DNA from: an uncultured Tateyamaria sp.
GTDB taxonomy: Bacteria > Pseudomonadota > Alphaproteobacteria > Rhodobacterales > Rhodobacteraceae
DNA length: 64,000 nucleotides
Reading direction: 5' to 3'
Assembly: GCF_947487805.1 (NCBI RefSeq)
Contig: NZ_CANKXW010000009.1
Coordinates: 124,001-188,000, forward strand
The notes below the pieces were generated by a model. It searched no databases. It was not told the origin of the DNA and saw only the letters and a program-made list of their open reading frames with translations. The translations under genes were made by a program, and so were the position numbers. Positions 4,892 through 24,883 of the stretch are shown here, piece after piece. Positions within the stretch are counted from its first letter, which is position 1. Every line of letters begins with the position of its first letter.

Positions 4892-5887
4892 TTACCCCTC
4901 CGTACGCTCCATCGCGTTCGACCGCGCAATCAGGTCCACGCCCATCTGCGCCATCAGGTCCATGTAGTCGAGGCAAACCCAGTTCTCTGCGATCTGCCCG
5001 CCCGCGCAGCGGTAGAAATCCATCACCCGCAGCGTCAGCGCCTTGCCCGTCGCAGCCACCCCCAGATAGGGGCCGCGATGGGTCATCGTCATCGACGGCC
5101 AGCCCGAGATCGCGGCGTAATTCCCCTGTCCGATCCGGGCATAGTGATTGCCCCCCTTGCGGTCCGGAAAGGCCGCCAGAAACGGCGCGCGGTGGTCCTG
5201 CACGAACCCGTCCCAACGGTAGTTCGATCCGACCCCGCCCGGCCCGTACCACAGCATGTCGTCAGCCCAGTATCCGCCCTTGCCGGTCTGCCCCTTGGAC
5301 GCGCCGGTGTTGGGGTCATAGACGTGCAGATCCCCCAGCATCGCCTCGATCAGATCGAGGCTTGCCGCGCCATCCCCGCCGGGCAGAATGCCGTCATGGG
5401 TGGCCGGCCCGGGGAACAGCATCTCTGTCCCCAAAAGCCCGCCAAACGGATCCCGCCCCGCCTGCCGCATCAGGTCCGGCAGATCCAGGATCACCCGGGC
5501 CTCCACGATGCGGCCGTGCTCTACGCGGTAGAACTCGCCCGACCGCAAAAACGCCAACCGATTCGACGGCGCAATCCCCCAGAGCGGCCCCGCAAACGTG
5601 CCCACATAATGCGTCACCGCCGCAATCCAGTCGCCCCCGACCGCGCGCCGATTGGCCCCGGTGATGAAAATCTCATCGCGCCGCCGGACGTGCCGCAGTG
5701 CAGCGCGAAGTGGTGCAAAAACCGTCTCCCACGCCGCCGCGCGCGCCGCCACCTCATTCACGGGATGCGAGAAATAAAAGGCGCAATCGTCCGAAAACGC
5801 CGTCTCCAACGCGCGCTGCGCTGCGGCATCATCCTCTGCCCAAATCCCGGTCAATGCGGCGTGGATGCGCCCGATATCATCGCTCAT
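4892..5887 (-). CDS. Double SnoaL/NTF2-like protein (island copy 1)
   Basis: The protein has 331 residues from the ATG at 5887 with an AGGGAG ribosome site; an upstream ATG at 5923 would lie inside the operator palindrome and is rejected. Two NTF2-like alpha+beta-barrel domains are recognisable. The first includes the GEFYRVEHGRIVEA strand pair. The second includes WYGPGGVGS, the PDRK loop, a GWPSM segment and MDFYR...ENWV. The second half closely matches the proteins at 14067 and 15071. SnoaL-fold proteins include polyketide cyclases, isomerases and dehydratases, so the reaction cannot be named. It is divergent from the ABC ATPase gene and probably under the same LacI-type control. Confidence 0.8.
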   Translation of the reverse strand: MSDDIGRIHAALTGIWAEDDAAAQRALETAFSDDCAFYFSHPVNEVAARAAAWETVFAPLRAALRHVRRRDEIFITGANRRAVGGDWIAAVTHYVGTFAGPLWGIAPSNRLAFLRSGEFYRVEHGRIVEARVILDLPDLMRQAGRDPFGGLLGTEMLFPGPATHDGILPGGDGAASLDLIEAMLGDLHVYDPNTGASKGQTGKGGYWADDMLWYGPGGVGSNYRWDGFVQDHRAPFLAAFPDRKGGNHYARIGQGNYAAISGWPSMTMTHRGPYLGVAATGKALTLRVMDFYRCAGGQIAENWVCLDYMDLMAQMGVDLIARSNAMERTEG

Positions 5888-5905
5888 CGTTTCAAAGCTC
5901 CCTGA

Positions 5906-5925
5906 TTTTGCACACGTGTGCAAAA
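5906..5925. promoter_or_regulatory. 20-bp perfect palindrome, LacI-family operator candidate
   Basis: TTTTGCACACGTGTGCAAAA is perfectly self-complementary with a central CG, the usual form of LacI/PurR-family operators. It lies in the divergent gap between the SnoaL gene (start 5887) and the ABC ATPase (start 5989), so one repressor could control both directions. The only LacI-family gene in the window, at 17785, lies inside the same island and is the obvious candidate. The pairing is inferred. Confidence 0.75.
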
Positions 5926-5988
5926 AACAGTTGCCAAGCCGCGGTGCGGATGTCTAGCCTCAATCAACACGCCGTGACGGGGGACCCA

Positions 5989-7035
5989 ATGGCCGAAATC
6001 CAATTGCGCAATATCAACAAACGGTGGGGCTCCTTTGTGGGCGTCGACAACTTTGATCTGACCATCGCGGACGAGGAATTTCTGGTCCTGCTGGGGCCGT
6101 CGGGCTGTGGCAAGACGACGACCATGCGGATGATCGCGGGGCTGGAGGACGCCACCGACGGCGACATCGTGATCGACGGCAAACGGGTCAACGATCTGGA
6201 CCCCAAGGACCGCGATGTGGCGATGGTGTTCCAGTCCTACGGGCTCTATCCGCACCTCAACGTCTACGAGAACATCCGCTTCCCGCTCAAGGTGCGCAAG
6301 GTCGATCCAGCGACCCATGACGAACGGGTGCGCCGCGCCAGTGCGATGGTGGAACTGGACGAATTCCTGCACCGCAAACCTGCCGAACTCTCGGGTGGTC
6401 AGCGCCAGCGCGTGGCGCTTGCCCGTGCCATCGTGCGCGAACCCAACGTGTTCCTGATGGACGAGCCGCTGTCGAACCTCGATGCGAAACTGCGCGTGTC
6501 GACACGGGCGCAGATCAAGAACCTCAGCCACGAGCTGAAGGTCACCACCGTCTATGTGACCCATGACCAGATCGAGGCGATGACGCTTGCCGACCGAGTG
6601 GTCGTGATGAAGCAGGGCAAGGTGCAACAAGTTGGAACGCCTACGGAAATTTACGATCACCCGGCCAATACCTTTGTCGCGTCCTTCATCGGATCGCCCG
6701 CGATGAACCTGATGGACGGCACCATGTCCGGCGGCACATTCACCGGCGACAATGTCAGCATCTCGGGCCTGTCCGCGCCGGACGGGCCGGTCACCATGGG
6801 CTTCCGCGCCGAAGACGCCGAGCTGTCCGAAGGGCAGGGCGAGATCACCGCGCCGATCTACACGATCGAGCTTTTGGGCGACGCCACGATGCTTACCGTG
6901 CGCGCGGGCGGCCAGCTGGTGTCGGTCAAGGCGCACAAGGAGTTCCGGGCCGAGATCGGCGACACCGTGACGTTCCGGGTTCCGGCGGGCATTTGCCACG
7001 CCTTTTCCTCTTCCGACGGCGAACGCATCGCCTGA
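5989..7035 (+). CDS. ABC transporter ATPase, MalK/UgpC type
   Basis: The 348-residue cytoplasmic ATPase belongs to a carbohydrate-type (CUT1) importer. Walker A GPSGCGKTT has Lys42, the signature LSGGQRQR is at 134-141, Walker B is LMDEP with D158/E159, and the switch His is in YVTHDQ. A C-terminal MalK/TOBE-like regulatory domain covers about 240-348. The start at 5989 (MAEIQLRNINKRW) is typical for the family; the upstream open frame is not. It is the first gene of the rightward transcript, followed by the binding protein and, after one oxidoreductase gene, two permeases. The substrate is unknown. Confidence 0.93.
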   Translation: MAEIQLRNINKRWGSFVGVDNFDLTIADEEFLVLLGPSGCGKTTTMRMIAGLEDATDGDIVIDGKRVNDLDPKDRDVAMVFQSYGLYPHLNVYENIRFPLKVRKVDPATHDERVRRASAMVELDEFLHRKPAELSGGQRQRVALARAIVREPNVFLMDEPLSNLDAKLRVSTRAQIKNLSHELKVTTVYVTHDQIEAMTLADRVVVMKQGKVQQVGTPTEIYDHPANTFVASFIGSPAMNLMDGTMSGGTFTGDNVSISGLSAPDGPVTMGFRAEDAELSEGQGEITAPIYTIELLGDATMLTVRAGGQLVSVKAHKEFRAEIGDTVTFRVPAGICHAFSSSDGERIA

Positions 7036-7129
7036 GGGAACCGTCCGCGCCCCGGCATGGGGCAGGACCAATCAGGCCGGTGCAGACTTGCAAGATGCAC
7101 TGGCTCTTAATGCAACAGGGAGTTTGCAC

Positions 7130-8350
7130 ATGTACTTGAAGAAACTGGCACTCGCGGGCGCTGTCTCGTTGATGGGCACGTCGGCATTTGCCGCCTGCGC
7201 CTATGAAAACACCGTGCCGCTGAAGTCGCTGTCGGCGGGGTTCGAAGCATGGAAAGCCGTCACCGACGCGATGGCCGAATGCGGGAATTTCCAGGCCGAG
7301 CTGGACCAGGAATTCCGCACCAAGCAGCCCGCGGCGTTCGAGGCGAACCCGTCGCTCTATCACATTGGCGGCGTGTCCAACGGCACGATCACACCGCTGC
7401 TGAACGCAGGCACGATCCGCCCGCTGGATGATCTGGTTGCCAAGTATGGTCAGAACCTGTCGCCCAACCAGCTGATCCGCGTGGACGGCCAGATCATGGC
7501 CGTGGCCATGATGGTCAACACCCAGCACCTGATGTACCGCGAGGACATCTTCAACGATCTGGGCATCGACACGCCGACGTCCTGGGATGAAGTGTTTGCC
7601 GCCGCTGAAAAGATCAAGGCCGCAGGTGTCGTGGATCACGCGATTGGCGCGACCATGAAATCCGGCTGGAACCTGGCGCAGGAATTCGTGAACATGTATC
7701 CCGGTTTCGGTGGCACGTTCTTTAACGACGACAACACCACCGCCGTGAATTCCGAAGCGGGCATGAAGGCACTGGCCACCATGCAGAAAACGCTCGAGTT
7801 CACCGATCCCGAGGTTCTCGTCAGCGACAGCACCTACGTGCAGCAGCAGTTCCAGCAGGGCAAGATCGCGATCTCCAACCTCTGGGCCAGCCGTGGTGGC
7901 GCGATGAACGACGCCAACGAAAGCACTGTGGTGGGCAAGGTCAAGATGGCGGCCGCACCAGTTGCCATGGACGGCGGCGCACCGGCCACGACACTGTGGT
8001 GGGACGGCATCGTGATCGCGTCCAACATCACCGATGAAGAGGCTGATGCCGCGTTCCGTCTGGCGATGGAAGGTCTGGACGAAGACATGGTCAAGGCCAA
8101 CAACGATGCGGCCATCTGGCTGGTCAAGGGCTACGAGCCCGGCCCGCTGGCCGAAGGTGCGATTGCAACCGCAACCGCCACACCTGCGGCACCGCCCTAT
8201 CCATCGACCACGCAGATGGGCCTGTTGCACACTGCATTGGGCAACGAACTGCCTGCGTTCCTGACGGGCGAGCGTGACGCGGCGGCGACGCTGGTTGCGA
8301 TCGAGGAAGCCTACACCACATCGGCCAAAGAGGCCGGCGTGCTGCAATAA
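7130..8350 (+). CDS. ABC transporter substrate-binding protein (family 1)
   Basis: The 406-residue periplasmic binding protein has a signal peptide MYLKKLALAGAVSLMGTSAFA cut near residue 21. A GGGA ribosome site lies about 8 bases before the ATG at 7130. The mature chain has the extracellular solute-binding family 1 layout: NTQHLMYREDIFNDLGIDTPTSWDE near the hinge, GTFFNDDNT in the middle, and LWWDGIVI before the C-terminal helices. It would deliver ligand to the permeases at 9908 and 10964. Family 1 proteins mostly bind sugars or polyols, but the binding-site residues here do not identify a ligand. Confidence 0.92.
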   Translation: MYLKKLALAGAVSLMGTSAFAACAYENTVPLKSLSAGFEAWKAVTDAMAECGNFQAELDQEFRTKQPAAFEANPSLYHIGGVSNGTITPLLNAGTIRPLDDLVAKYGQNLSPNQLIRVDGQIMAVAMMVNTQHLMYREDIFNDLGIDTPTSWDEVFAAAEKIKAAGVVDHAIGATMKSGWNLAQEFVNMYPGFGGTFFNDDNTTAVNSEAGMKALATMQKTLEFTDPEVLVSDSTYVQQQFQQGKIAISNLWASRGGAMNDANESTVVGKVKMAAAPVAMDGGAPATTLWWDGIVIASNITDEEADAAFRLAMEGLDEDMVKANNDAAIWLVKGYEPGPLAEGAIATATATPAAPPYPSTTQMGLLHTALGNELPAFLTGERDAAATLVAIEEAYTTSAKEAGVLQ

Positions 8351-8405
8351 GCACTTCACTTGGCTGGCCGGGGATGTCCCGGCCAGCCGACGTTCCGGGG
8401 GATCC

Positions 8406-9911
8406 ATGAAAACCGAGTATGATCATATCGTTGTGGGCGGTGGCTCTGCTGGATGCGCGGTGGCTGCGCGTCTTGCCGAACAACCGGGCGCACGCGTCTG
8501 TGTGATCGAGGCGGGGCCGTCGGATGCGGATTTGCGGGTCAAGGTGCCCTTCGGCCTGGTGCATTTGCTGGGCTCTGACCGGCGCAACTGGAAACGCCAG
8601 ACGGTGCCCATGGCTGCTGCGGGAGAGCGCCGTGTGTCGGTGCCGCGCGGGCGGATGCTGGGCGGGTCGGGGTCGATCAACTCGATGGTCTGGTTTCGCG
8701 GCACCCGCGCGGATTTCGACGCCTGGCAGGTGCCCGGCTGGGACAGCGACACGGTATGGGCGGCCTTTGATGCGGTCGAGGCGCGCATGACACCCGCGCG
8801 GCTGCCGCATCCGCATCCCCTTTCTGAGGCGTTTGGCGCGGTCTTTGCCGCCAATGATCCCGGTGCGCCGCCCACGCCGGAACGGCAGAGCGCGGGCGTG
8901 TTTCACACCAACATGCGCAATGGCGCGCGCTGGTCCGCGGCGGACGGGTTCCTGCGTCCTTCGGGGGCCGAGGTGCTGACCGGGGCCGAGGTGGACCATG
9001 TTTTGTTCGACGGCCTGAGGGCGACGGGCGTGGCGCTGCGTGACGGGCGCAAGATCCTGGCGCGCGGCGGGGTGGTCCTGTCCGCCGGCAGCATCGAAAG
9101 CCCGATGATCCTGATGCGCTCCGGCATTGGGCCCGGTGCCGACCTCAGGGCCGCTGGCATCGACGTGCGGCTGGATGCGCCGGGGGTCGGGGCAAACCTG
9201 CACGACCATCCGGGCTTTGGCCTGCATTTCAAGGGGCGCGGGTCGGGTTATGGCCTGACGCTGGCGCAATTGCCCGCCTGGGCGGTCGCGCCGCTGCAAT
9301 GGCTGGCGCTGCGGTCTGGACGGCTGAGCTCCAACACGGTCGAGGCGGGCGCATTCTATGGGCTGGGCGACAGCGACGTGCCCGAGATCCAGACGCATTT
9401 CCTGCCCTTCCTGATGGGCTGGCAGGGCCGCGCGATCATCTGGGGGGCGGGGTATTTCGCCGACGTGTGCCTGTGCCAGCCTCGGTCGCGCGGCGCGCTG
9501 CGCATCGGCGCGGACCGGTATGCGCCGCTGATTGACCTGAACCTCTTTGGCGACGACCGGGACCTCGACATGATGGTCGCCGCCGTTGCACGCCTGCGCG
9601 CGGTTCTGGACCGCGCCGATTTTGGCGCGCGCCGCGCGCCCGAGGCGTTCCCCGGCCGCAACATCACCGGTGACGCGCTGCGCGAGACGATCCGCACCCG
9701 TGCGGGCACGGCCTATCACCCGGTGGGCACGGTCGCGCTGGGTGGTCCGCTTGGACCCACCGGCGCGGTCAAGGGCGTCCAGAACCTCTGGGTCGCGGAT
9801 GCCAGCGTCATGCCGCGCATCACAAGCGCCAACACAAACGCCCCGTCGATGATGATCGGCTGGCAGATCGGGGGCCATGTCGCCGCCGCAGCGACAAGGA
9901 AAGCAGCATGA
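8406..9911 (+). CDS. GMC-family FAD oxidoreductase (choline dehydrogenase-like)
   Basis: The 501-residue flavoenzyme has the N-terminal FAD Rossmann motif VVGGGSAGC (residues 8-16). The GMC signature RGRMLGGSGSINSMVW lies near 82-97. The C-terminal active site is YHPVGTVALG with the catalytic His, then ADASVMPRITSANTNAP with the partner Asn. Such enzymes oxidise primary or secondary alcohols to carbonyls. The start ATG follows GGGGGATCC. It lies between the binding protein and the first permease and overlaps the latter by 4 bases, so it probably acts on the imported substrate. It is an alternative to the HisD-like and SDR dehydrogenases for the first oxidation step. Confidence 0.92.
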   Translation: MKTEYDHIVVGGGSAGCAVAARLAEQPGARVCVIEAGPSDADLRVKVPFGLVHLLGSDRRNWKRQTVPMAAAGERRVSVPRGRMLGGSGSINSMVWFRGTRADFDAWQVPGWDSDTVWAAFDAVEARMTPARLPHPHPLSEAFGAVFAANDPGAPPTPERQSAGVFHTNMRNGARWSAADGFLRPSGAEVLTGAEVDHVLFDGLRATGVALRDGRKILARGGVVLSAGSIESPMILMRSGIGPGADLRAAGIDVRLDAPGVGANLHDHPGFGLHFKGRGSGYGLTLAQLPAWAVAPLQWLALRSGRLSSNTVEAGAFYGLGDSDVPEIQTHFLPFLMGWQGRAIIWGAGYFADVCLCQPRSRGALRIGADRYAPLIDLNLFGDDRDLDMMVAAVARLRAVLDRADFGARRAPEAFPGRNITGDALRETIRTRAGTAYHPVGTVALGGPLGPTGAVKGVQNLWVADASVMPRITSANTNAPSMMIGWQIGGHVAAAATRKAA

Positions 9912-10936
9912 AGTTCAAGACATTCTTCTGGTTCGTGGCGCCCTCGGTTTTCATGATGCTGCTGTTTATCGCGGCCCCGCTGGTGTCGGTGTTCCTGCAA
10001 TCGTTTCAAGTCACCCAGCCGGTGGTCCAGCAGGTCGAGGTCGAAACCTGCACGCCCGGTTTCCTGACCCAGACCTGCACCACCGAACTCAAGACCGTGC
10101 CGATCATCGACGAGGTGACGGGCAAGGCCCAGACCACCACGTCCTGGGTCGGGTTCCAGAGCTACCAAAACGTGTTGCAGATGGACAAGGTCTGGGAGGC
10201 CGTGAGCGATGGCCGGTTGCGCGACATTCTCCAGATCGATTTCTGGAAGGCCCTGCGGTTCACGCTGATGTTCACCCTTGTCACGTTGCCGCTGGTCATC
10301 GGGGTGGGCCTGATGATCGCACTGGCCGTCAACAACGCGTCCAAGTCGCTGCGCGGGCCGGTGATCTTCGTGTCGCTCCTGCCGTTCATCATCACGCCGG
10401 TTATCGGGTCGCTGTCGATCTACTGGCTCTTTGTGGGCGACGGCATCCTGACTGCGACGCTGGAGCGCTGGACCGGGCAGGACATCGCGATGTTCGCCAA
10501 TGCCTGGACGATCGAGTTGCTGATGTATTTCTACCGCGTCTGGCACGTTGCCCCCTTTGCCTTCGTGATCTTCTATGCAGGCCTCCAGACCGTGAACATG
10601 GACACGCTGGAAAGCGCGATCATCGACGGGGCCAACCGGTTCGAGCGGCTGCGCTATGTGATCGTGCCGCACCTGATGCCGCTGATCATTTTCATCGCGC
10701 TGATCCACCTGATGGACTGCTACCGCGTGTTTGACGAGATCATCGGCTTCCGCAGCCAGGCGCACGTGATCTCGCTGCAATGGCTGACCTTTGATTTCCT
10801 GACGCCCGACGATTCTGGCAACCGCGCCATCAGCCGGGCCGCGGCCAGCTCCATGCTGACCATGATCGGGATCGTCATCCTGCTGATCCTGCCACTGCGC
10901 CGCACATGGCGCGACCACAAGGGAGGGGCGCATTGA
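9908..10936 (+). CDS. ABC transporter permease, MalF type
   Basis: The 342-residue inner-membrane subunit starts in an ATGA overlap with the GMC gene. The N-terminal helix is followed by a long extracytoplasmic loop (about 35-95) with two CxP/C motifs (ETCTPGF, QTCTTEL), as in MalF-like proteins with an inserted periplasmic segment. Five further membrane helices follow. The ATPase-contacting EAA loop is LESAIIDGANRFERLRYVIVPHLMP. It pairs with the permease at 10964. The two cysteines in the loop could form a disulphide, which is unusual for this family. Confidence 0.9.
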   Translation: MKFKTFFWFVAPSVFMMLLFIAAPLVSVFLQSFQVTQPVVQQVEVETCTPGFLTQTCTTELKTVPIIDEVTGKAQTTTSWVGFQSYQNVLQMDKVWEAVSDGRLRDILQIDFWKALRFTLMFTLVTLPLVIGVGLMIALAVNNASKSLRGPVIFVSLLPFIITPVIGSLSIYWLFVGDGILTATLERWTGQDIAMFANAWTIELLMYFYRVWHVAPFAFVIFYAGLQTVNMDTLESAIIDGANRFERLRYVIVPHLMPLIIFIALIHLMDCYRVFDEIIGFRSQAHVISLQWLTFDFLTPDDSGNRAISRAAASSMLTMIGIVILLILPLRRTWRDHKGGAH

Positions 10937-10963
10937 TGTGCTGCCCCAAAGGGAGACCTGACC

Positions 10964-12118
10964 ATGTCAAGTAAAGCCACCGCACAGCCGCTGTCGCTCA
11001 AGATCGCGTCGGGTGCCTTCCTGGCCTTCTGGTGCCTGATCGCCGCCTTCCCCATCGTGTGGATCGCGGTGATGAGCGTGAAATCCCCGCGCGACGCCTT
11101 TGCCGCCAGCGCCTGGGACGTGATCACCGGGCCCGCCACCCGCGCGGCCGGAAACGGGCTGAGCCTGCTCGACATCGTCCTCGGGCTGATCGTCCTGTTC
11201 CTCGCGATCCGTTGGGCGTTTACCCGCCTGCCGGGTCTGGTCCAGCAATTCACGCCGCCGGGCCTGATCGCGCTGGGCTGGCTCATCGGGGCGGCGGTCT
11301 ATGGCATCCTCTTTGTGCTGGTCTTCTTTGGTGTGCTGCCGCTGGTGCTGGGTCCGCTCAACAGCGTGCTTGGCCCGCTGGGCACGCCCATCATCGGCCT
11401 GACGACCGAACATTACGTGGCGGTCTGGGGCGAGAACCAGTTCTACCGCAACTTCATGAACTCGATGATCGTGACGGCGGGCGTGGTGACCGTGTCGCTG
11501 ACCGTGGGCACGCTGGCCGGGTACGGCCTCGCGCGGTCCGGTTCGAACCTCGCGTTCTGGCTGCTGATCGTGGCGCTGGTGTTCCGGGCGCTGCCGCACT
11601 CCGTACTTGTGGCGGGTTACTTGCCGTGGTTCATCAACTCGGCCGAAATCCTGCGCCCCATCTTTGGTGATCTGGCGCCCACTCTGTATGGCCAGCCCTG
11701 GGCCATCATCGCGGTGCTGGTGGCAATCAACCAGCCCTTCACCATCTGGATGCTGCGGTCGTTCTTTCAGAACATCCCCTCCGAATTGGACGAGGCCGCG
11801 CGTGTGGACGGGTGCAGCCACTTTCAGGCCTTCCGCCGCGTGATCATGCCGGTCATGTGGCCGGGCGTCATCACCACCGGGCTGTTCAGCTTCCTTCTGG
11901 GCTATAACGACTTCCTCGTCACCGCGCTGCTGCTGGATGCACAGAACCAGACGATGGTTCCGGCCATTGCAGGCTACTTCAACCGCGAAACCACCACGAC
12001 CGATCAGGTCGAGGCGGTGGCTGCCGCCGTCTCCATCACAGCACCCCTGTTCCTTCTGGTCATGGTGTTCCAGCGCCAGATCGTATCGGGGCTGACGGCG
12101 GGCGCGGTGAAAGGCTGA
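10964..12118 (+). CDS. ABC transporter permease, MalG type
   Basis: The 384-residue inner-membrane permease is longer than typical MalG proteins (about 280-300). The extra length is two or three additional hydrophobic segments at about 60-130, between the first helix and the conserved MetI-like core. The EAA loop reads ELDEAARVDGCSHFQAFRRVIMPVMWP. A GGGAGACC ribosome site precedes the ATG, 27 bases after the MalF-type gene. It completes the four-component importer with the genes at 5989, 7130 and 9908. Confidence 0.9.
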   Translation: MSSKATAQPLSLKIASGAFLAFWCLIAAFPIVWIAVMSVKSPRDAFAASAWDVITGPATRAAGNGLSLLDIVLGLIVLFLAIRWAFTRLPGLVQQFTPPGLIALGWLIGAAVYGILFVLVFFGVLPLVLGPLNSVLGPLGTPIIGLTTEHYVAVWGENQFYRNFMNSMIVTAGVVTVSLTVGTLAGYGLARSGSNLAFWLLIVALVFRALPHSVLVAGYLPWFINSAEILRPIFGDLAPTLYGQPWAIIAVLVAINQPFTIWMLRSFFQNIPSELDEAARVDGCSHFQAFRRVIMPVMWPGVITTGLFSFLLGYNDFLVTALLLDAQNQTMVPAIAGYFNRETTTTDQVEAVAAAVSITAPLFLLVMVFQRQIVSGLTAGAVKG

Positions 12119-12133
12119 TGGCTTCTTCTGGCT

Positions 12134-12166
12134 AAAAATATCCTGGGGTCTGGGGCAGCGCCCCAG
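12134..12166 (+). repeat. Dispersed AAATA-hairpin repeat, copy A
   Basis: AAAAATATCC is followed by a GGGGTC bridge and a stem CTGGGGC-AGC-GCCCCAG (12150-12166). It belongs to the same family as the copies near 26131, 44905 and 63162 and the truncated copy at 19781. Here it sits inside the rightward transcript between the permease and a SnoaL gene, so it could be an intra-operon mRNA-stabilising or attenuating hairpin. Confidence 0.7.
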
Positions 12167-14064: not shown

Positions 14065-14066
14065 GC

Positions 14067-17510: not shown

Positions 17511-17785
17511 TGCGTGATCCCATCACAGAACCGGTGAACGACTTGGAGCGCGCCCTGAGCGACCGCGCGCGCGCCGCGTGGAGTGCGATGCCGGACGACG
17601 TGAAGTTTGCCATGCGCAAGCGTCTTTTCCAGATGAACCCGATCAACGCGATCAAGGAAGTTGGGGTGCATTTCCGCGACGGTGCATGGTCGATCACGCC
17701 ATTTCCTGATGCGCACGGGTTTGGAGAGTTGGGCCTTGCGGGTTGCAAGTACATCCATGACAAATTGTGCGAGCGACCAAACTGA
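17510..17785 (+). CDS. Small uncharacterised protein
   Basis: The 91-residue protein is not recognised. It starts in a TGATG overlap with the SDR stop and ends in the same kind of overlap with the LacI gene, so it is almost certainly translated. The N-terminal half is helical and charged (NDLERALSDRARAAWSAMPDDVKFAMRKRLF). The second half contains VGVHFRDGAWSITPFPDAHGFG and a Cys in LAGCKYIHDK. It has no signal peptide or membrane helix. Confidence 0.7.
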   Translation: MRDPITEPVNDLERALSDRARAAWSAMPDDVKFAMRKRLFQMNPINAIKEVGVHFRDGAWSITPFPDAHGFGELGLAGCKYIHDKLCERPN

Positions 17786-18804
17786 TGCCGGACAAGGTGA
17801 CAGCATTGGATGTGGCCGAACGCGCGGGCGTGTCCCGGTCTGCGGTCAGCCGGGTGTTCACGCCCGGCGCATCCGTGTCCAAACGCACGGCGGACAAGGT
17901 GCGGCAGGCGGCGGATGCGCTGGGCTACCGGCCCAACGTGCTGGCGCGCAGCCTGATCACCGGGCGCAGCCGCATCATTGGCCTCGTCGTCGCCTACCTC
18001 GAAAACCACTTCTACCCCGAAGCCATCGAACGGCTGAGCCGCAAGTTGCAGGAACAGGGCTATCACGTGCTGGTGTTCCTGTCGTCCAACTCGGGTGAAG
18101 AGGCCGACGAGGTGATGGAGGAACTGCTGGACTACCAGGTCGATGGCATCATCGCCGCCAGCGTTGGCATGTCCAACGACCTCACGCAACGGTGCGAAGC
18201 GGCCGGCATCCCGATTGTCCTGTTCAACCGGGCACAGGATGACGACCGGCTGTCCTCGGTCACGTCTGACAATTATCACGGTGGGCGCAAGCTGGCCGAA
18301 TTCCTGGTCGCGGGCGGGCACAGGCGCATTGCCCATGTCGCCGGGTGGGAAGGCGCCTCGACCCAGCGCGACCGCGAGGCCGGGTTTGTGGCGGGGTTGC
18401 AGGCCGCCGGGCAGAGCCTGCATGCCCGCGGCGTGAGTGATTTCAAGTTCGAGCAGGCCAAGCAGGTTGCGCGCGAGATGTTTTCAGGCCCCGACCGGCC
18501 CGATGCGGTGTTCTGCGCCAATGATCACATGGCCTTTGCCGTGATGGATGTGCTGCGCTTTGAGCTGGGCTTGCGGCTTCCGGACGACGTGTCTGTCGTG
18601 GGATATGATGACGTGACGCTGGCCGCCTGGCCCAGCTATGACCTGACCACGGTGCGCCAGCCTGCGGGCCAGATGGCCGATGCCACGGTCGAGATCTTGA
18701 TGGATCGGCTGTCCGATCCCGAAACCAAACCCCGCCGAGTCGCGCTGGACGGACCACTGGTCCTTCGCGGATCGGCACGTTTACCCAAAGGATGGACCTC
18801 ATGA
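17785..18804 (+). CDS. LacI-family transcriptional regulator
   Basis: The 339-residue protein has an N-terminal HTH, VTALDVAERAGVSRSAVSRVF (about residues 5-25), followed by the hinge YRPNVLARSLITGRS. A periplasmic-binding-protein-like effector domain follows, with FCANDHMAFAVMDVLR near the ligand cleft. The HTH is of the type that binds palindromes with a central CpG. It is embedded in the catabolic operon (TGATG and ATGA overlaps), so autoregulation through the operator at 5906 is likely. The inducer is presumably the imported compound or an intermediate. Confidence 0.93.
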   Translation: MPDKVTALDVAERAGVSRSAVSRVFTPGASVSKRTADKVRQAADALGYRPNVLARSLITGRSRIIGLVVAYLENHFYPEAIERLSRKLQEQGYHVLVFLSSNSGEEADEVMEELLDYQVDGIIAASVGMSNDLTQRCEAAGIPIVLFNRAQDDDRLSSVTSDNYHGGRKLAEFLVAGGHRRIAHVAGWEGASTQRDREAGFVAGLQAAGQSLHARGVSDFKFEQAKQVAREMFSGPDRPDAVFCANDHMAFAVMDVLRFELGLRLPDDVSVVGYDDVTLAAWPSYDLTTVRQPAGQMADATVEILMDRLSDPETKPRRVALDGPLVLRGSARLPKGWTS

Positions 18805-19769
18805 AGGGTTTTTCGAACCGGTGGAAGGACTTCCCCGACTATATCATCGGTATCACCAAGGAGATCTGGGAAGATCGCGGCATCGCGACGCTGCATCACT
18901 ATTACAGCCCCGATATCGTGGTGCGGTCGCCGGGGTCCGTGGTCATCGGCAATGAAAAGGTCATCGGGGCGACCATGGCGACCCTGGCCGAATTCCCCGA
19001 TCGGACCTTGCTGGGCGAGGACGTGATCTGGAGCGGGACACCAGAAGAGGGGATGCTGTCCTCGCACCGGTTGCTGAGCACGGCGACGCATCTGGCCGAT
19101 GGTGTCTATGGCAAGGCGTCGGGCAAAAAGCTGACCTACCGCATCATTGCGGACTGTCACGCGATCAATGATCAGATCAACGACGAATGGCTGATCCGGG
19201 ACCAGACCGCGATCGTGAACCAGATCGGGTGGGAGGCCAAGGCCTATGCCGCCGACCTGATCGAACGTGAGGGCGGGATGGAAAACGCCGTGCGGCCCCT
19301 GACCCCCGCCATCGATCAGCCGGGACCCTACAAGGGCCGGGGCAACGACAACGTCTGGGGTGAGAAATATGCCGACATCCTGACCCGGATCATGGGCGCG
19401 GATATGGCCGCGATCCCCGCAGAATACGACCGGGCGGTGCAGTCGGAATATCCCGGCGGGCAGACCGGGCATGGCACCGGGCCGGTGGACCGGTTCTGGA
19501 TGGGGCTGCGTGCGTCCTTCCCGGATGCCACCTTTACCATCGATCACCAGATCGGGCGCGACGACGACCTGATGCCGCCCCGTGCCGCGATCCGCTGGGC
19601 GCTGCATGGCAAACATGACGGGTGGGGGTATTTCGGGGCGCCGACGGGTGCGGAGGTCTATGTGCTGGGCATCAGCCATGCGGAGTTCGGCCCCTGGGGC
19701 CTGCGGCGGGAATATGCGCTTTTTGACGAGACGGCGATCTGGAAGCAGATTCTGCTCCAGACCGGCTGA
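18801..19769 (+). CDS. Double SnoaL/NTF2-like protein (island copy 5, divergent)
   Basis: The 322-residue protein starts at the ATG at 18801, coupled to the LacI stop by ATGA, with AAAGGA 8 bases upstream. An ATG at 18792 overlaps that site and is less likely. Domain 1 (about 15-150) includes HYYSPDIVVRSPGSVVIGNEKV, a classic SnoaL-like opening. Domain 2 (about 205-320) includes FWMGLRASFPDATFTIDHQIG and WALHGKHDG. It lacks the WYGP motif of copies 1, 3 and 4, so it forms a separate branch. Function is unknown. Confidence 0.8.
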   Translation: MKGFSNRWKDFPDYIIGITKEIWEDRGIATLHHYYSPDIVVRSPGSVVIGNEKVIGATMATLAEFPDRTLLGEDVIWSGTPEEGMLSSHRLLSTATHLADGVYGKASGKKLTYRIIADCHAINDQINDEWLIRDQTAIVNQIGWEAKAYAADLIEREGGMENAVRPLTPAIDQPGPYKGRGNDNVWGEKYADILTRIMGADMAAIPAEYDRAVQSEYPGGQTGHGTGPVDRFWMGLRASFPDATFTIDHQIGRDDDLMPPRAAIRWALHGKHDGWGYFGAPTGAEVYVLGISHAEFGPWGLRREYALFDETAIWKQILLQTG

Positions 19770-19780
19770 GGTCGGATATG

Positions 19781-19803
19781 CATATTTTTGGAACAATGAA
19801 GGG
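19781..19803 (-). repeat. Dispersed AAATA-hairpin repeat, truncated copy E
   Basis: On the minus strand this reads TTCATTGTTCC followed by AAAAATATGC. It matches the left half of copy B (44903-44921) with one mismatch. The GC-rich hairpin half is missing. It occupies the gap before the GTG start of the PNPOx-like gene. Confidence 0.6.
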
Positions 19804-19811
19804 GCAGGGGT

Positions 19812-20426
19812 GTGGAACGCTATGATGCGCTGATGTTCACGCCGGGGGTGCGCGCCCTGCAGGAGGCGGACGGATCGGCGGAGATGTATGCCCGAAATTA
19901 CGGGCCGCGGACCCATGCGCTCAATGCGGATGAGGTGGCGTTTGTCGCGCAGCGCACGTCGTTTTATATGGCGAGCGTTTCCGAGACCGGGTGGCCTTAT
20001 GTCCAGCATCGCGGGGGGCCTGCGGGCTTCCTGAAGGTGCTGGATGATCATACGCTGGCCTTTGCGGATTACCGGGGCAACCGGCAGCATATCAGCGAAG
20101 GCAACCTGGCGTCGGACAACCGGGTGTCGCTGTTCCTGATGGATTATCCGCGCAAGGCCCGGTTGAAGATGCAGGGTCACGCGACGGTCGTGCGGGCCGA
20201 GGATGCGCCTGCGCTTGCCGCGCGTGTCGCCGTGGACGGGCAGGGCCGGGTCGAGCGGGTGGTGACGATTGCGCTGGCCGCGTTCGATTGGAATTGCCCG
20301 CAGTTCATCACGCCGCGGTTCGATGCCGCCGAGATCGCGCAGCTGGTGGCGCCGGAGCTGGACAGGCAGCAGGCGCGCATCGCGGAACTGGAGGCCGAGA
20401 TTGCGCGGCTGAAGGGGCAGGGATGA
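19812..20426 (+). CDS. Pyridoxamine 5'-phosphate oxidase-like flavoprotein
   Basis: The 204-residue protein starts at GTG behind a GGGGCAGGGG tract. The split-barrel core (about 35-165) shows FYMASVSETGWPYVQHRGGPAGFLKV, the usual FMN-binding opening of this superfamily, and RVSLFLMDYPRKARLKMQGHA. The C-terminus is a short coiled coil (about 175-203) with a run of Glu/Arg heptads. Such proteins bind FMN, F420 or haem; the cofactor here is unknown. It overlaps the next gene by 4 bases. Confidence 0.85.
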   Translation: MERYDALMFTPGVRALQEADGSAEMYARNYGPRTHALNADEVAFVAQRTSFYMASVSETGWPYVQHRGGPAGFLKVLDDHTLAFADYRGNRQHISEGNLASDNRVSLFLMDYPRKARLKMQGHATVVRAEDAPALAARVAVDGQGRVERVVTIALAAFDWNCPQFITPRFDAAEIAQLVAPELDRQQARIAELEAEIARLKGQG

Positions 20427-20959
20427 CCGATATCTACCGTGCAGCAGAACGGTTGATGGGCATGGAGGATGCAGATTGGCGCCGTCATGCAAACCCGCTC
20501 AGCGTATGGACGCGGTTCACCTGTCTGCCCTTGATCGTCCTGGCCATCTATGCGCGCCAGTGGATCGGGTGGGGGGCATTGCCTCTGGTCCTGCTGGCGG
20601 TGGCGTGGACATGGATCAACCCGCGCCTGTTTCCGCCGCCTGCCGATTTCGGCAGCTGGGCGGCGCGCGGGACATTGGGGGAGCGCGTGTTCCTGGCGCG
20701 CCATCGCTACGACGTGCCGGCGCACCACATCCGAATGGCGCATATCCTGACCGGACTGTCCGCGCTGGGCCTTGTGCCGCTGATCTACGGGCTGGTCACC
20801 TTTGATGCGTGGGCCACGGGCGCGGGCCTTCTCGCGGTGATCCTGTCCAAGGTGTGGTTCGTGGACCGCATGGTCTGGATCCACGCCGACATGACCGACA
20901 CACAACCGGGCGACCCTTTGCCCGACCCGACATTGCCACATGAAAGGACCACATCATGA
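20423..20959 (+). CDS. Small integral membrane protein (DUF6653-like)
   Basis: The 178-residue protein starts in an ATGA overlap with the PNPOx-like gene. After a soluble start (ADWRRHANPLSVWTRF) come two closely spaced membrane segments near 34-68, a cytoplasmic HRYDVPAHH region, and two more hydrophobic segments near 110-145. The ending is KVWFVDRMVWIHADM. The WRRHANPxSVWTRF opening resembles the DUF6653 family as I recall it; this is not verified. Function is unknown. The short overlap with the bicupin gene suggests co-translation. Confidence 0.7.
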   Translation: MTDIYRAAERLMGMEDADWRRHANPLSVWTRFTCLPLIVLAIYARQWIGWGALPLVLLAVAWTWINPRLFPPPADFGSWAARGTLGERVFLARHRYDVPAHHIRMAHILTGLSALGLVPLIYGLVTFDAWATGAGLLAVILSKVWFVDRMVWIHADMTDTQPGDPLPDPTLPHERTTS

Positions 20960-21921
20960 CCCCCGCCGAGATGGAGCCGCGCATCGTGCGCTATGGCGAT
21001 CTTCGCCCCTGCAAGACCGCATTCATCGATGCGCACACGCCCGGCAGCGACCAGAAAGAAAACTTTACCATCATCGGTGGCGGTGTGTCGGAAAGTGCTG
21101 ACCAGCATGTCCACATCTCGATCCCGCACGGGTTCAACATCGGCGCTGCCGGCCAGCCGCCCAAGTGCCGCAACTCGCTGCACAGCCACCGCACGGCAGA
21201 GGTGTTTTTTGTCCTGTCGGGACGCTGGCGGTTTTTCTGGGGCCGCTGGGGCACGGCGGGCGAGGTGGTGCTGGAAGAGGGCGACATCATCAACATCCCC
21301 ACGGGCATTTTCCGCGGGTTCGAGAATATCGGCACGGACTACGGAATGATCATGGCGATCTTGGGCGGTGACGATGCGGGTGGCGGCGTGATTTGGGCGC
21401 CGCAGGTGATCGAGGATGCGACCGACCACGGCCTCGTGCTGGGCGAGAACGGCAAGCTTTATGACAGCAAGGCGGGCGATACGCTGCCCGACGGGATTGC
21501 GCCGATGCCGGTGCTGACCGAGGCGGAGCTTGCCGCCTATCCCGAAATGTCGCCGATGCAGGTCGTGGGCATGGGCGTGCGCCGCTATTGGGACATGGTG
21601 TGCCTGGCCAAGGATACCCCCTGCAAGGTGATCGGCGAGACCGGGATCATCCGCGACAAGCCCGGTTTCGAGGTGGATCTGGTCACGCGATCAAGTGCGA
21701 GCGACGAGATGCACCAGCATGACCGCCCGTCTGTCCTGATGCCCATGCGCGGGCACTGGCGGGTGACATGGGAGGGCGGGGCCACGACGCTGGCACCCGG
21801 TGACACGATGAGCGTGCCCGAGAACCTGCCCCATGCGGCGGTGCCGTCGATGACGGGTGAGGCATCGCTTTATCATATCGTGGGCACGGATGACCCGGCG
21901 GGACCCACATGGCAGGGATAG
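20956..21921 (+). CDS. Two-domain cupin protein
   Basis: The 321-residue bicupin has cupin 1 (about 70-130) with HSHRTAEVFFVLSGRWRF, keeping two His and a Glu of the metal site. In GDIINIPTGIFRGFENIG the usual third-His position appears to be Phe/Arg. Cupin 2 (about 235-310) has HQHDRPSVLMPMRGHWRV and ENLPHAAVP, with the acidic ligand not evident. Bicupins of this layout include dioxygenases and isomerases. Cytoplasmic location is inferred from lack of a signal. It overlaps the preceding gene by 4 bases and the methyltransferase gene by 13. Confidence 0.85.
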   Translation: MTPAEMEPRIVRYGDLRPCKTAFIDAHTPGSDQKENFTIIGGGVSESADQHVHISIPHGFNIGAAGQPPKCRNSLHSHRTAEVFFVLSGRWRFFWGRWGTAGEVVLEEGDIINIPTGIFRGFENIGTDYGMIMAILGGDDAGGGVIWAPQVIEDATDHGLVLGENGKLYDSKAGDTLPDGIAPMPVLTEAELAAYPEMSPMQVVGMGVRRYWDMVCLAKDTPCKVIGETGIIRDKPGFEVDLVTRSSASDEMHQHDRPSVLMPMRGHWRVTWEGGATTLAPGDTMSVPENLPHAAVPSMTGEASLYHIVGTDDPAGPTWQG

Positions 21922-22520
21922 ACGCCTCTCCGGACGACACGCAGCAGGTCTATGAACGGCAGGCCGAGGCCTTTGACGCAGGCCGGTCCCGCGCCTTGTT
22001 CGAGGCGCGCTGGCTGGCCCGGTTCACCGCCTGCCTGCCCGCGGGTGGTCGGGTGCTGGATCTGGGATGCGGCAGCGGTGATCCGATTGCCCGCTGGTTC
22101 ATTGCCGAAGGCTTTGCCGTCACCGGTGTCGATTTCGCCCAGCCGATGCTGGACCTTGCGCGCGGGCGTTGGCCGGGTGGCGATTGGCGGTTGGGCGACA
22201 TGCGCAACCTCGACCTGCCGGACCGCTTTGACGGGATCGTGGCGTGGAACAGCTTTTTCCACCTGCGCCCCGACGACCAGCGCACCTGCATTGGTCACAT
22301 GGCCCGGCATCTTGTGCCGGGCGGCTCACTGCTGCTAACCGTGGGACCGGAGGCGGGCGAAGTATCCGGCACCGTAGGGGGAGAGCCGGTGTACCATGCC
22401 TCCCTGTCGCCCGCAGGTTACGCCACCTGCCTCGAAGACCACGGCCTGCGCCTGACCGGGTTTCTGGCCGAGGATCCGGACACCGACAAGGCCAGCGTGC
22501 TGATGGCCCGCAAAGACTGA
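21909..22520 (+). CDS. Class I SAM-dependent methyltransferase
   Basis: The 203-residue protein contains motif I VLDLGCGSGDPIA (about 50-62), an acidic motif II in VTGVDFAQPMLDLAR, and FDGIVAWNSFFHLRPDDQ. This is a standard small-molecule methyltransferase core without extra domains. The ATG at 21909 lies inside the bicupin gene. No residues identify the acceptor. The following MetE-like gene suggests methyl-group chemistry at this end of the operon. Confidence 0.88.
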   Translation: MAGIDASPDDTQQVYERQAEAFDAGRSRALFEARWLARFTACLPAGGRVLDLGCGSGDPIARWFIAEGFAVTGVDFAQPMLDLARGRWPGGDWRLGDMRNLDLPDRFDGIVAWNSFFHLRPDDQRTCIGHMARHLVPGGSLLLTVGPEAGEVSGTVGGEPVYHASLSPAGYATCLEDHGLRLTGFLAEDPDTDKASVLMARKD

Positions 22521-22535
22521 ACCAGGAGAGACCCA

Positions 22536-23660
22536 TTGCCCGTTCTGACAACCCACACCGGCAGCCTGCCACGGACCCAAGAGGTCGTCGATTTCATCTT
22601 TGCCCGCGAGCGGGAGGAACCCTATGATCAGGCCGCCTTCGATGCGGCGATGACAAAGGCCGTGGATGACACGGTGGCCAAGCAGGTCGCCGCCGGGGTG
22701 GATATCGTAAGCGACGGCGAGACGTCCAAGATCAGCTACGCCACCTATGTCAAGGACCGCTATACCGGGTTTTCCGGTGACAGCCCGCGCAATGCGCCCG
22801 CGGACCTCAAGCAATTCCCCAGCTTTCTCAAGCGTTTGGCAGAGGGCGGCGGGACGCCGCAATATGCCCGCCCCATGTGCACCGGAGAGGTCAAAAGCCG
22901 CGGGCAGGGCGAGTTGGAAAAGGATATCGCCAACCTCAAGGCGGCGATGGCCAAGCACGGGGTGACGCGCGGTTTCATGAACGCGGCCTCGCCGGGCGTC
23001 ATTTCGCTGTTTCTGCAAAATGATTTCTACCCCACGCGGGATGCCTATCTGGCGGCCCTCGCGGATGCGATGAAGGCGGAATACGAAACCATCGTCGCCG
23101 CCGGTCTGGACGTGCAGCTTGACTGCCCCGATCTGGCGCTCAGCCGCCATATGCTTTTTGCCGATCTGAGCGATGCGGAATTTCTCAAGATCGCCGACGC
23201 CCATGTCGAGGCGTTGAACCATGCGCTGTCGGATGTGCCGCAGGACAAGGTGCGCGTGCACATCTGCTGGGGCAATTACGAGGGGCCGCACACCTGTGAC
23301 ATCGACATGGACACCGTGTTCCCCACGTTGATGGCGACCAAGGCACGCTATGTCCTGTTCGAGACCTCGAATCCGCGCCACGCCCATGAATGGACCGTTT
23401 TCCGCGACCGCAAATCCGAGATCCCGGAGGACAAGGTGCTGGTGCCGGGTGTGGTGGACACCACTACCAATTTTGTCGAACACCCCGACGTCGTCACCCA
23501 GCGGCTGGAGCGGTTCACCGACATCGTCGGGGCCGACCGTGTGATCGCGGGCAGCGATTGCGGCTTTGGCACCTTTGCGGGCTTTGGCTCTGTCGATCCG
23601 GAGATCGCCTATGCCAAGCTGTCGGCCCTCACCACCGGTGCCGCGCGGGCCAAGGGGTAG
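22536..23660 (+). CDS. MetE C-terminal-domain-like (cobalamin-independent methionine synthase II family) protein
   Basis: The 374-residue protein starts at TTG with AGGAGAG 8 bases upstream. The THTGSLPR opening and TIM-barrel layout are those of stand-alone MetE-C-like proteins. Zinc-type residues appear in HICWGNYEGPH and GSDCGFGT. The family includes methyl/alkyl transferases acting on thiols, such as epoxyalkane:coenzyme M transferase. It is too short for full MetE (about 750) and lacks the folate N-terminal half, so a transalkylation or lyase role is more likely than methionine synthesis. Confidence 0.87.
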   Translation: MPVLTTHTGSLPRTQEVVDFIFAREREEPYDQAAFDAAMTKAVDDTVAKQVAAGVDIVSDGETSKISYATYVKDRYTGFSGDSPRNAPADLKQFPSFLKRLAEGGGTPQYARPMCTGEVKSRGQGELEKDIANLKAAMAKHGVTRGFMNAASPGVISLFLQNDFYPTRDAYLAALADAMKAEYETIVAAGLDVQLDCPDLALSRHMLFADLSDAEFLKIADAHVEALNHALSDVPQDKVRVHICWGNYEGPHTCDIDMDTVFPTLMATKARYVLFETSNPRHAHEWTVFRDRKSEIPEDKVLVPGVVDTTTNFVEHPDVVTQRLERFTDIVGADRVIAGSDCGFGTFAGFGSVDPEIAYAKLSALTTGAARAKG

Positions 23661-23663
23661 GTT

Positions 23664-24356
23664 ATGGACAGCGCCCTGCATGACCTGCTGAAATCGGTCG
23701 ACACGCCCACGGTCTGCAACGCCATCGAGGTCGCGCAGGGCAAGCGCGGGTTCAACGGCTTTACCCGCGGCACGATGCTGGCCTCGGACCCGGATGGTGT
23801 GATGGTCGGCTATGCCCGCACCGCCCGTATCCGCGCCGTGGCCCCGCCGACCGAAGCACCGGAGGTGATCAAGGCACGGCGCATGGCCTATTACCGCTAC
23901 ATGTCCGAGGGGGATCGCCCCTCCGTTTGCGTGGTGCAGGATCTGGATGTGCCCGCCGCCATCGGCGCCTATTGGGGCGAGGTGAACACCAACATCCACA
24001 AGGCGTTTGGTCTGGCCGGAACGCTCACCGACGGGGTGATGCGCGATCTGGGCGACGTGGCCGAAGGCTATCCGGTGGTCGCCGGGTCCATCGGCCCCAG
24101 CCACGGCTTTGTGCACGTGGTGGATTACGACACGCCCGTGCGCATCTTTGGCCTGGACATCCGACCCGGTGATCTGGTCCACGCGGACCGCCACGGTGCC
24201 GTTGTGGTGCCGGAGGACGTGATCCCGCACCTTGCTGATGCCATCGCGACCCTGATGCGGTCCGAGGCCATCGTGTTCGACGGGGTCAAGGGCAAGCGCG
24301 TGACCTTTGACGAATTCGAAAGCATCTGGGCCGCGTTCGAGGCTGCGCGCACGTGA
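23664..24356 (+). CDS. RraA-like / HMG aldolase-family protein
   Basis: The 230-residue protein follows the MetE-like gene by 3 bases. The fold signature includes TPTVCNAIE at the start and GTLTDGVMRD, matching the GxxTDGxxRD substrate/metal motif of 4-hydroxy-4-methyl-2-oxoglutarate aldolases. The GDLVHADRHGAVVVP strand follows. Such enzymes cleave 4-hydroxy-2-oxo acids to pyruvate and a second acid, or decarboxylate oxaloacetate. It could be the carbon-splitting step of the island pathway. An RNase E inhibitor role is unlikely outside enterobacteria. Confidence 0.87.
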   Translation: MDSALHDLLKSVDTPTVCNAIEVAQGKRGFNGFTRGTMLASDPDGVMVGYARTARIRAVAPPTEAPEVIKARRMAYYRYMSEGDRPSVCVVQDLDVPAAIGAYWGEVNTNIHKAFGLAGTLTDGVMRDLGDVAEGYPVVAGSIGPSHGFVHVVDYDTPVRIFGLDIRPGDLVHADRHGAVVVPEDVIPHLADAIATLMRSEAIVFDGVKGKRVTFDEFESIWAAFEAART

Positions 24357-24883
24357 CCCGCTGGGCAGCGGCGCTGATGCTGCTATGTCTGCCCTGCATG
24401 GGGATGGGGCAGACGATGGAACTGGAACCCGACTGGGAATATGTGGCCGACACGGTCATGGGCGGTGTCTCGCAAGGGGCCGCACGCCTTGAGACAGTGG
24501 ACGGGCGGCAGGCCACGCGCCTGACCGGCACGGTGTCGCTCGACAACAATGGGGGCTTTGTCCAGATCGCGTTTGATCTGGCGGGTGGCGCGGTGTTCGA
24601 TGCGTCCGGCTATACTGGCATCGCCCTCGATCTGCGCGGAAACGGAGAGGACTACGACATCCGCTTGCGCACCGACGCGCTGACCCGACCCTGGCAATCC
24701 TTTCGCACCAGCGTGACGGTCCCGCCCGCGTGGACAACCCTGCGGCTGCCCTTTGCGGCCTTTGTGCCCCACCGCACCGACGCCGCGTTCGATCCGTCCC
24801 GCCTGCGCCGCATCGGCATCCTCGCCATCGGCCGCGAGATGCAGGCCAACATCGCCGTGTCCGGCGTGCGCCTCTACCGCTAG
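24353..24883 (+). CDS. Exported CIA30-like protein
   Basis: The 176-residue protein starts with GTG in a 4-base overlap with the RraA-like gene and has a signal peptide ending near GMGQT (residue 20). The mature part has DTVMGGVSQGAARLE, SLDNNGGFVQIAFDL and YTGIALDLRGNGEDYDIRLRTD, the jelly-roll pattern of the CIA30 (complex I intermediate-associated protein 30) family. Bacterial members are of unknown function. A role as an extracytoplasmic binding protein is possible. Its TAG stop shares a CTAG palindrome with the stop of the convergent gene. Confidence 0.8.
   Translation: MTRWAAALMLLCLPCMGMGQTMELEPDWEYVADTVMGGVSQGAARLETVDGRQATRLTGTVSLDNNGGFVQIAFDLAGGAVFDASGYTGIALDLRGNGEDYDIRLRTDALTRPWQSFRTSVTVPPAWTTLRLPFAAFVPHRTDAAFDPSRLRRIGILAIGREMQANIAVSGVRLYR

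Follow-up and report, generated by a model that had tools for sequence, protein, structure and literature searches.

The window analysed here, a 64,000-nucleotide stretch of DNA from an uncultured Tateyamaria sp. (contig NZ_CANKXW010000009.1), holds at positions 4892-24883 a cluster of 21 genes, identified from open reading frame (ORF) calls and a Pfam search, which we regard with high confidence as a real and widespread unit that we could match to no described pathway. The cluster combines an ATP-binding cassette (ABC) importer and a LacI-family regulator with five proteins of the SnoaL fold, a dehydrogenase resembling HisD, a bicupin, a MetE-like protein and an RraA-like aldolase. Tentatively, we read it as a LacI-controlled unit for the import and catabolism of mycosporine-like amino acids (MAAs). 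This reading is supported by the co-inheritance of importer, regulator and enzymes, by loci in which the SnoaL proteins accompany the importer alone, and by the serine and threonine genes found in Vibrio (an L-serine ammonia-lyase), Ensifer (tdh and kbl) and Halomonas (kbl). The exchange of one aldolase type for another in a further bacterial family, the residues of the HisD-like protein, a bicupin model nearest to YxaG and a review passage on Vibrio harveyi are also consistent with it. If the substrate is an MAA, the cluster would account genetically for what becomes of the abundant sunscreens of algae, corals and cyanobacteria, a flux of both carbon and nitrogen, and catabolic enzymology would gain tandem-SnoaL hydrolases that work without a cofactor.

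Recurrence of the gene set

A sequence-only reading of this DNA had described a packed set of genes with a sugar-type importer, a LacI regulator and five SnoaL proteins, and the 21 genes bear this out (Table 1). The importer has the make-up of a CUT1 ABC importer, with a MalK/UgpC-type ATPase, an SBP_bac_1 protein and two permeases, and among solved structures the binding protein (the 7130 product) is by sequence closest to binding proteins of the sugar type, with a best E of 7e-15. The same reading also proposed a single catabolic unit, linked to the importer and including a dedicated regulator and an aldolase-like gene, and the recurrence of the families in 81 loci supports this. These loci are the window and the best 80 of 587 SnoD relatives from named genomes, ranked by likeness to SnoD, one of the tandem SnoaL proteins; they are related to each other and were selected via SnoD, and hence are not independent. 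The counts are lower bounds, since loci cut at contig ends were retained. SnoC is pooled with SnoD in them, and two duplicates (L096 of L095 and L128 of L127) are included. The core families range in frequency from SnoE, in 78 of the loci, to the RraA-like protein, in 51. Two other families that recur are an alpha/beta hydrolase (36 of 81), a 57% homologue of which occurs at a second place in the window's genome, with no further cluster gene in the 20 kb examined around it, and an Amidohydro_2 protein (25 of 81).

Contrary to the earlier reading, not every gene belongs to this core. GMC and DUF6653 (4 of 81 loci each), PNPOx (6), CIA30 (7), the glutathione S-transferase (8) and the methyltransferase (18) are accessory. 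The three classes of alcohol dehydrogenase noted before are consequently reduced to two, the HisD-like protein (66 of 81) and the SDR (60 of 81), because the GMC protein is accessory.

SnoD relatives were found in 118 of 295 genomes sampled from the window's family (E <= 1e-20), and a profile matched 132 of 292 genomes of the order and 21 of 289 of the class (E <= 1e-40), 17 of these 21 lying outside the family; the matches at weaker E include paralogues, and none of these numbers is a count of whole clusters. The closest named relatives of the locus are uncultured Tateyamaria records, in which SnoD is 80-89% identical (L053-L056), Tateyamaria belonging to the Roseobacteraceae, and the gene set of the window is repeated in 20 neighbourhoods from genomes of the family (L033-L052). 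These 20 neighbourhoods show two types of binding protein and permease 1, one roughly 67-91% and the other 39-45% identical to those of the window, beside enzymes that stay similar throughout; given these two types, the importer may have been exchanged between versions of the cluster.

The gene set is also found in other gene orders. L095, from a record labelled SAR324, contains MR/MLE, amidohydrolase, RraA-like, SDR, HisD-like and SnoE genes, both permeases, the binding protein, SnoD, SnoA, LacI, the MetE-like protein and the bicupin, arranged differently from the window; the ATPase and SnoB were not found in it. Differing orders are also seen in L176 and L180, which keep the cluster genes in small alphaproteobacterial genomes (2.8 and 1.4 Mb, respectively) from outside the family. 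The presence of the same gene set in rearranged orders in these three loci argues against mere shared ancestry, and the unit thus stands up to the search for co-occurrence outside this genome that the sequence-only reading had suggested. The SAR324 bin (L095/L096) carries the cluster on two contigs, making its label or assembly doubtful, and the same is true of the bins of L127 and L128, labelled Roseobacter and Flavobacteriia, which have contig name and length in common.

Versions of the cluster are present in Halomonas (L119, L120), on a soil Ensifer plasmid (L136), in the gammaproteobacterial family f178 (L214-L225) and on plasmids of Octadecabacter, Paracoccus and Marinovum. Three loci (L126, L131 and L132) contain the importer, SnoD and SnoE only, pointing to a probable role of the SnoaL proteins in the first steps. 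On a plasmid of the haloarchaeon Halobellus limi (L135:10614-17007), a row of genes for four tandem SnoaL proteins, a single-domain one and a MetE-like protein lies near an ABC importer, the binding protein of which does not match that of the window. Like the earlier reading, which recognised no described pathway, a search of the open-access PubMed Central literature, covering the titles and abstract openings of the top-ranked entries and excluding subscription papers and preprints, turned up no publication on this cluster or on genes that break down MAAs.

SnoaL proteins and neighbouring serine and threonine genes

Four of the five SnoaL-fold proteins are tandem, with two Pfam stretches or a length of about 330-350 amino acids, and one is single (12244-12726). 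Pairwise identities among SnoA, SnoC and SnoD are 31-36%, and SnoE is divergent. The model of SnoD (predicted local distance difference test score, pLDDT, 82) consists of two NTF2-like domains, the fold that SnoaL (1sjw), IdmH (6hnn) and Lsd19 (3rga) share. Single SnoaL-type domains such as IdmH are matched well in Foldseek, and the list is headed by Lsd19 and MonB, two tandem epoxide hydrolases that superpose poorly over the whole length (root-mean-square deviation 17.6 for Lsd19). When SnoB, the single-domain protein and the only one aligned in this way, is placed on SnoaL, Asp110 and Val124 lie opposite His107 and Asp121, which we take to be the catalytic residues of SnoaL and which are thus not kept. 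In this respect, and in their catabolic setting with an importer, the proteins are unlike the SnoaL polyketide cyclases.

Neighbouring genes in other bacteria favour the release of an amino acid by the SnoaL proteins over the isomerisation, cyclisation or dehydration steps suggested in the sequence-only reading. On a Vibrio europaeus plasmid a SnoA relative lies near a gene for L-serine ammonia-lyase (TIGR00720, 650 bits). On a plasmid of Ensifer adhaerens E-60, a SnoaL importer cluster and the core cluster flank tdh (585 bits against a cut-off of 380) and kbl (676 against 460), and kbl (648 bits, cut-off 493) is also found near SnoaL genes in Halomonas smyrnensis (L119). These neighbours were spotted post hoc, and the Vibrio case was then tested on new genomes by searching the genus with a related tandem-SnoaL gene, SnoF (L187:10617-11618). 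SnoF is present in 25 of 99 Vibrio genomes, from which 26 loci were taken, one genome having two. L-serine ammonia-lyase lies beside SnoF in 23 of the 26 loci and a symporter and MFS carrier in 24, and most loci include a porin and a LacI gene as well. The exceptions are L188, L190 (a 49-position remnant only) and L191 (a plasmid copy). None of 20 control windows, placed 300 kb away in 20 of these genomes, contains the lyase, the symporter or the MFS carrier. The 25 SnoF-bearing genomes carry two to three lyase genes each.

The Vibrio operon shares with the window a tandem SnoaL protein, a LacI regulator and uptake genes; unlike the window it has a sodium:solute symporter in place of the ABC importer, a serine lyase is present and the ring-type enzymes are absent. 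In two of the Vibrio genomes (L226 and L227) the ring-type enzymes are found elsewhere, and some SnoF-bearing genomes also hold an importer-SnoD-SnoE cluster or HisD-like and bicupin genes (L191, L193, L226 and L227). The SnoF-lyase operon (L188-L213) offers a direct experimental entry point. Lone SnoF-like genes are found in the window's own genome (L174:8016-9008, G000:C2:236018-237010) and in genome G055 (L182), flanked by genes that, from their translations, resemble NtrX-type regulators and TrkA/TrkH-type proteins, surroundings that could represent a nitrogen-related setting.

A possible route for MAA breakdown and its competitors

Among common marine molecules, MAAs are those that carry either serine (as in shinorine) or threonine (as in porphyra-334) on one and the same core; 4-deoxygadusol has a tertiary C-OH that bears a CH2OH, together with an O-methyl group and a 1,3-dicarbonyl system. 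We know of no reference family for MAA catabolism. The idea of an MAA came first, from the enzyme set, and was followed by review passages on 4-deoxygadusol and on Vibrio harveyi, the latter met after the lyase of Vibrio europaeus had been found; the genus-wide Vibrio test came last. According to these passages, bacteria form 4-deoxygadusol from shinorine and porphyra-334, and for Vibrio harveyi a hydrolysis of the hydroxyamino acids of both, giving mycosporine-glycine, was suggested by Dunlap and Shick (PMC3083659).

The route set out here, substrate and each reaction alike, is proposed from gene content, conservation, residue states and neighbouring genes, and its single steps are held with less confidence than the substrate. 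The substrate would be a C7 ring (4-deoxygadusol) bearing a single O-methyl group, glycine and either serine or threonine, taken up by the CUT1 importer. The tandem SnoaL proteins, acting without a cofactor, would hydrolyse the enamine and imine bonds to free the amino acids, and the MetE-like protein may participate in removal of the O-methyl group. The HisD-like enzyme would then oxidise the ring CH2OH, adjacent to the C-OH, to a carboxylate. Cleavage of the reductone ring between two enol carbons by the bicupin, in the fashion of acireductone dioxygenase, would give 4-carboxy-4-hydroxy-2-oxoadipate (CHA), which the RraA-like aldolase would split into pyruvate and oxaloacetate. In this scheme the SDR, the alpha/beta hydrolase, the amidohydrolase, the MR/MLE enzyme and the methyltransferase are without a firm place. 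That these enzymes, a new family of tandem-SnoaL hydrolases among them, together achieve complete aerobic mineralisation of MAAs, with some vibrios keeping only a serine-harvesting operon, beside the pathway or without it, seems somewhat doubtful.

The closest PDB sequence to the HisD-like protein (the 12736 product) is HpsN of Cupriavidus pinatubonensis (8v35), the 3-dehydrogenase for R-2,3-dihydroxypropane-1-sulfonate (R-DHPS), a full-length relative scoring 386 bits, the best histidinol dehydrogenase scoring 251 bits. The catalytic Glu318-His319 and Asp352 of HpsN and its zinc ligands are present, Glu319-His320, Asp353, Gln251, His254 and His413 being conserved in at least 97% of 66 aligned rows. 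A passage in PMC11382572 describes His126 of HpsN as recognising the sulfonate and separating HpsN from histidinol dehydrogenases. At this position all 66 rows, the window included, have Met, and 19 further rows have Met (11) or Leu (8). Because the sulfonate-reading His is replaced in every row checked, the protein is by its sequence not an HpsN, but would work as HpsN or HisD do, taking a primary alcohol to an acid; the surrounding genes here are not those of DHPS catabolism either. A histidinol dehydrogenase proper seems less likely: the protein passes TIGR00069, but its nearest solved relatives are HpsN and its gene lies in a catabolic cluster. The conserved subfamily is labelled histidinol dehydrogenase in public plasmid records despite its catabolic operon.

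The bicupin has two cupins, with His76 and His78 of the HxH motif and Glu82 of the first metal site invariant and Arg120 replacing the third usual His in 66 of 66 rows; the second metal site is not conserved. Its model (pLDDT 82) finds quercetin 2,4-dioxygenase YxaG first in Foldseek, but at about 14% identity and a template modelling (TM) score of about 0.5, and oxalate decarboxylases follow close behind, a ranking compatible with either type of reaction. The MetE-like protein is above the cut-off for Meth_synt_2 and keeps His242, Cys244, Glu276 and Cys342 in at least 97% of 60 rows; these are candidate zinc ligands, as we take His, Cys, Glu and Cys to be the ligands of MetE-like methyltransferases. 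CHA is the substrate of known RraA-fold aldolases, of which, in the HMG/CHA type, an Arg-Asp pair is presumably an active-site feature. The RraA-like protein has Arg127-Asp128 in 51 of 51 rows, but its match to the curated CHA aldolase model TIGR02798 (ligK_PcmE) is weak, at 29.8 bits far below the cut-off of 304.5. The best NCBIfam match of the SDR is KduD-like, under the cut-off.

Family f178 provides a further indication of a pyruvate aldolase. SnoF was found in 11 of its 98 genomes, giving 12 loci, of which eight have a GarL/HpaI-type aldolase, seven of these eight with a HisD-like gene; no RraA-like match was found in the loci with the GarL/HpaI type. Among the 80 named loci, by comparison, 50 have an RraA-like protein, and the GarL type is found in L119 alone, beside the RraA-like one. 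The swap between two types of pyruvate aldolase speaks for a 4-hydroxy-2-oxo acid as a late intermediate of the pathway.

Several observations weigh against an MAA as the substrate. It would require an O-demethylase, a role for which the MetE-like protein is no more than a candidate, and the GMC, SDR, lactonase-like and MR/MLE genes would suit sugar-acid routes equally. The bicupin fold is compatible with oxalate decarboxylases too, and Arg120 takes the place of its third usual metal-binding His. The lyase operon is confined to one genus and so counts as a single conserved arrangement rather than as 23 separate events, and SnoF is a paralogue of SnoD, not SnoD itself. Within a set of 104 loci, two contain kbl (with a further weak match at 33%) and one contains the serine lyase; lyase, tdh and kbl are all missing from the 12 loci of f178. 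The core clusters themselves show no enrichment of serine and threonine genes nearby, a TDH query giving one match at E < 1e-20.

The same neighbouring genes would fit degradation of another serine or threonine conjugate, for example with a sugar or cyclitol, from which the SnoaL proteins would free the amino acid before a sugar-acid route with a lactonase-like amidohydrolase, an MR/MLE dehydratase and a pyruvate aldolase. The relationship of the binding protein to sugar-type binding proteins is consistent with this, as is the presence of Amidohydro_2 in 25 and MR/MLE in nine of the 81 loci, L095 having both. It nevertheless seems decidedly unlikely, as the bicupin (67 of 81) and MetE-like protein (60 of 81) would have no obvious role, and we know of no abundant marine serine or threonine conjugate of this type. 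It is fairly unlikely, too, that the unit degrades a polyol, a branched sugar or a methylated cyclitol with no amino acid attached, the SnoaL proteins being isomerases or dehydratases and the serine and threonine genes being tied to other SnoaL paralogues. Such a substrate would agree with the CUT1 importer and its UgpC-like ATPase, the LacI regulator, the KduD-like SDR, the HisD-like enzyme and the aldolase, and with most core loci having no serine or threonine genes; it leaves the operon of SnoF with L-serine ammonia-lyase and the tdh-kbl pair of Ensifer unexplained, along with the need for up to nine cofactor-free domains.

The two remaining alternatives are far less probable than these. 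A biosynthetic (polyketide-type) or xenobiotic cluster with SnoaL cyclases is suggested by the Pfam assignment and by the Foldseek neighbours, IdmH and the polyether epoxide hydrolases, and is highly improbable given that the recurrent families of the 81 loci include no synthase, that importer and repressor are core and that the presumed SnoaL catalytic residues are not kept. The chance that the unit serves sulfonate (DHPS-type) catabolism through an HpsN-like dehydrogenase is next to negligible: HpsN is indeed the closest solved relative, but the replacement of His126 described above and the lack of a desulfonating enzyme among the recurrent families stand against it.

Gene inventory and other neighbouring genes

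The positions of the genes are given in Table 1. Several automatic ORF starts lie too far upstream, and the start positions shown are the analyst's choice. SnoA, the first gene, is transcribed divergently from the importer genes.

Table 1. Genes of the cluster and the adjoining MR/MLE gene, in window coordinates, with Pfam assignments in gene order and the number of the 81 loci in which each family is found
Feature	Coordinates	Strand	Pfam assignment	Basis and remarks	Loci (of 81)
SnoA, tandem SnoaL protein, divergent	4892..5887	-	SnoaL	Pfam SnoaL/SnoaL_2	56
ABC importer ATPase, UgpC/MalK type	5989..7035	+	ABC ATPase	NF008653 above cut-off	69
Solute-binding protein	7130..8350	+	SBP_bac_1	Pfam	69
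GMC oxidoreductase, accessory	8406..9911	+	GMC	Pfam	4
Importer permease 1	9908..10936	+	BPD_transp_1	Pfam	67
Importer permease 2	10964..12118	+	BPD_transp_1	Pfam	65
SnoB, single-domain SnoaL protein	12244..12726	+	SnoaL	Pfam; alignment to SnoaL 1sjw	67
HisD-like zinc dehydrogenase, HpsN relative	12736..14064	+	Histidinol_dh	Pfam, PDB sequences, residue test; Met130 at HpsN His126 position	66
SnoC, tandem SnoaL protein, SnoD paralogue	14067..15074	+	SnoaL	Pfam; 35% identity to SnoD	pooled with SnoD
SnoD, tandem SnoaL protein, search anchor	15071..16126	+	SnoaL	Pfam; model pLDDT 82, two NTF2-like folds	81 (anchor)
Glutathione S-transferase, accessory	16123..16752	+	GST	Pfam	8
SDR dehydrogenase	16749..17510	+	SDR	Pfam	60
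LacI-family regulator	17785..18804	+	LacI	Pfam	74
SnoE, divergent tandem SnoaL protein	18792..19769	+	SnoaL	Pfam in two stretches	78
PNPOx-like protein, accessory	19812..20426	+	PNPOx	Pfam	6
DUF6653 protein, accessory	20423..20959	+	DUF6653	Pfam	4
Bicupin	20956..21921	+	Cupin_2	Pfam, model and Foldseek; H76, H78, E82, R120 invariant (66/66 rows)	67
Class I methyltransferase, accessory	21909..22520	+	methyltransferase	Pfam	18
MetE C-domain-like protein	22536..23660	+	Meth_synt_2	Pfam; conserved H242, C244, E276, C342	60
RraA-like aldolase or decarboxylase	23664..24356	+	RraA-like	Pfam Aldolase/RraA; Arg127-Asp128 invariant (51/51 rows)	51
CIA30 protein, accessory	24353..24883	+	CIA30	Pfam	7
MR/MLE (enolase superfamily) protein, probable accessory enzyme	24880..26112	-		Pfam; also in rearranged locus L095	9

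A link of the cluster to one-carbon or methylthio metabolism was considered and rejected as not recurrent, SBP56 being found in two of the 104 loci and soxB, purU and DUF1852 in one each, and it was not used as support. The isolated neighbours behind it are a GcvT-like gene in Halobellus, DmdA and SBP56 near the Marinovum cluster, SBP56 near that of Phaeobacter piscinae and, on a Vibrio pelagius plasmid, genes for sarcosine oxidase, purU, a core MetE and DUF1852. In Phaeobacter piscinae and Marinovum algicola (L137, L140), and in no other of the 104 loci, the SBP56-like genes adjoin SnoaL genes and have a neighbouring gene in common.

Downstream, the MR/MLE gene is adjoined by a zinc alcohol dehydrogenase gene (26179-27270), which is present in four of the 81 loci. 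Upstream, at 1236-4680, lies a pair of genes, acyl-CoA dehydrogenase and E1/transketolase-like, which recur with the cluster in six and seven of the 81 loci. They probably belong to a separate pathway; in Ruegeria sp. THAF33 they are accompanied by aminotransferase and malonyltransferase genes.

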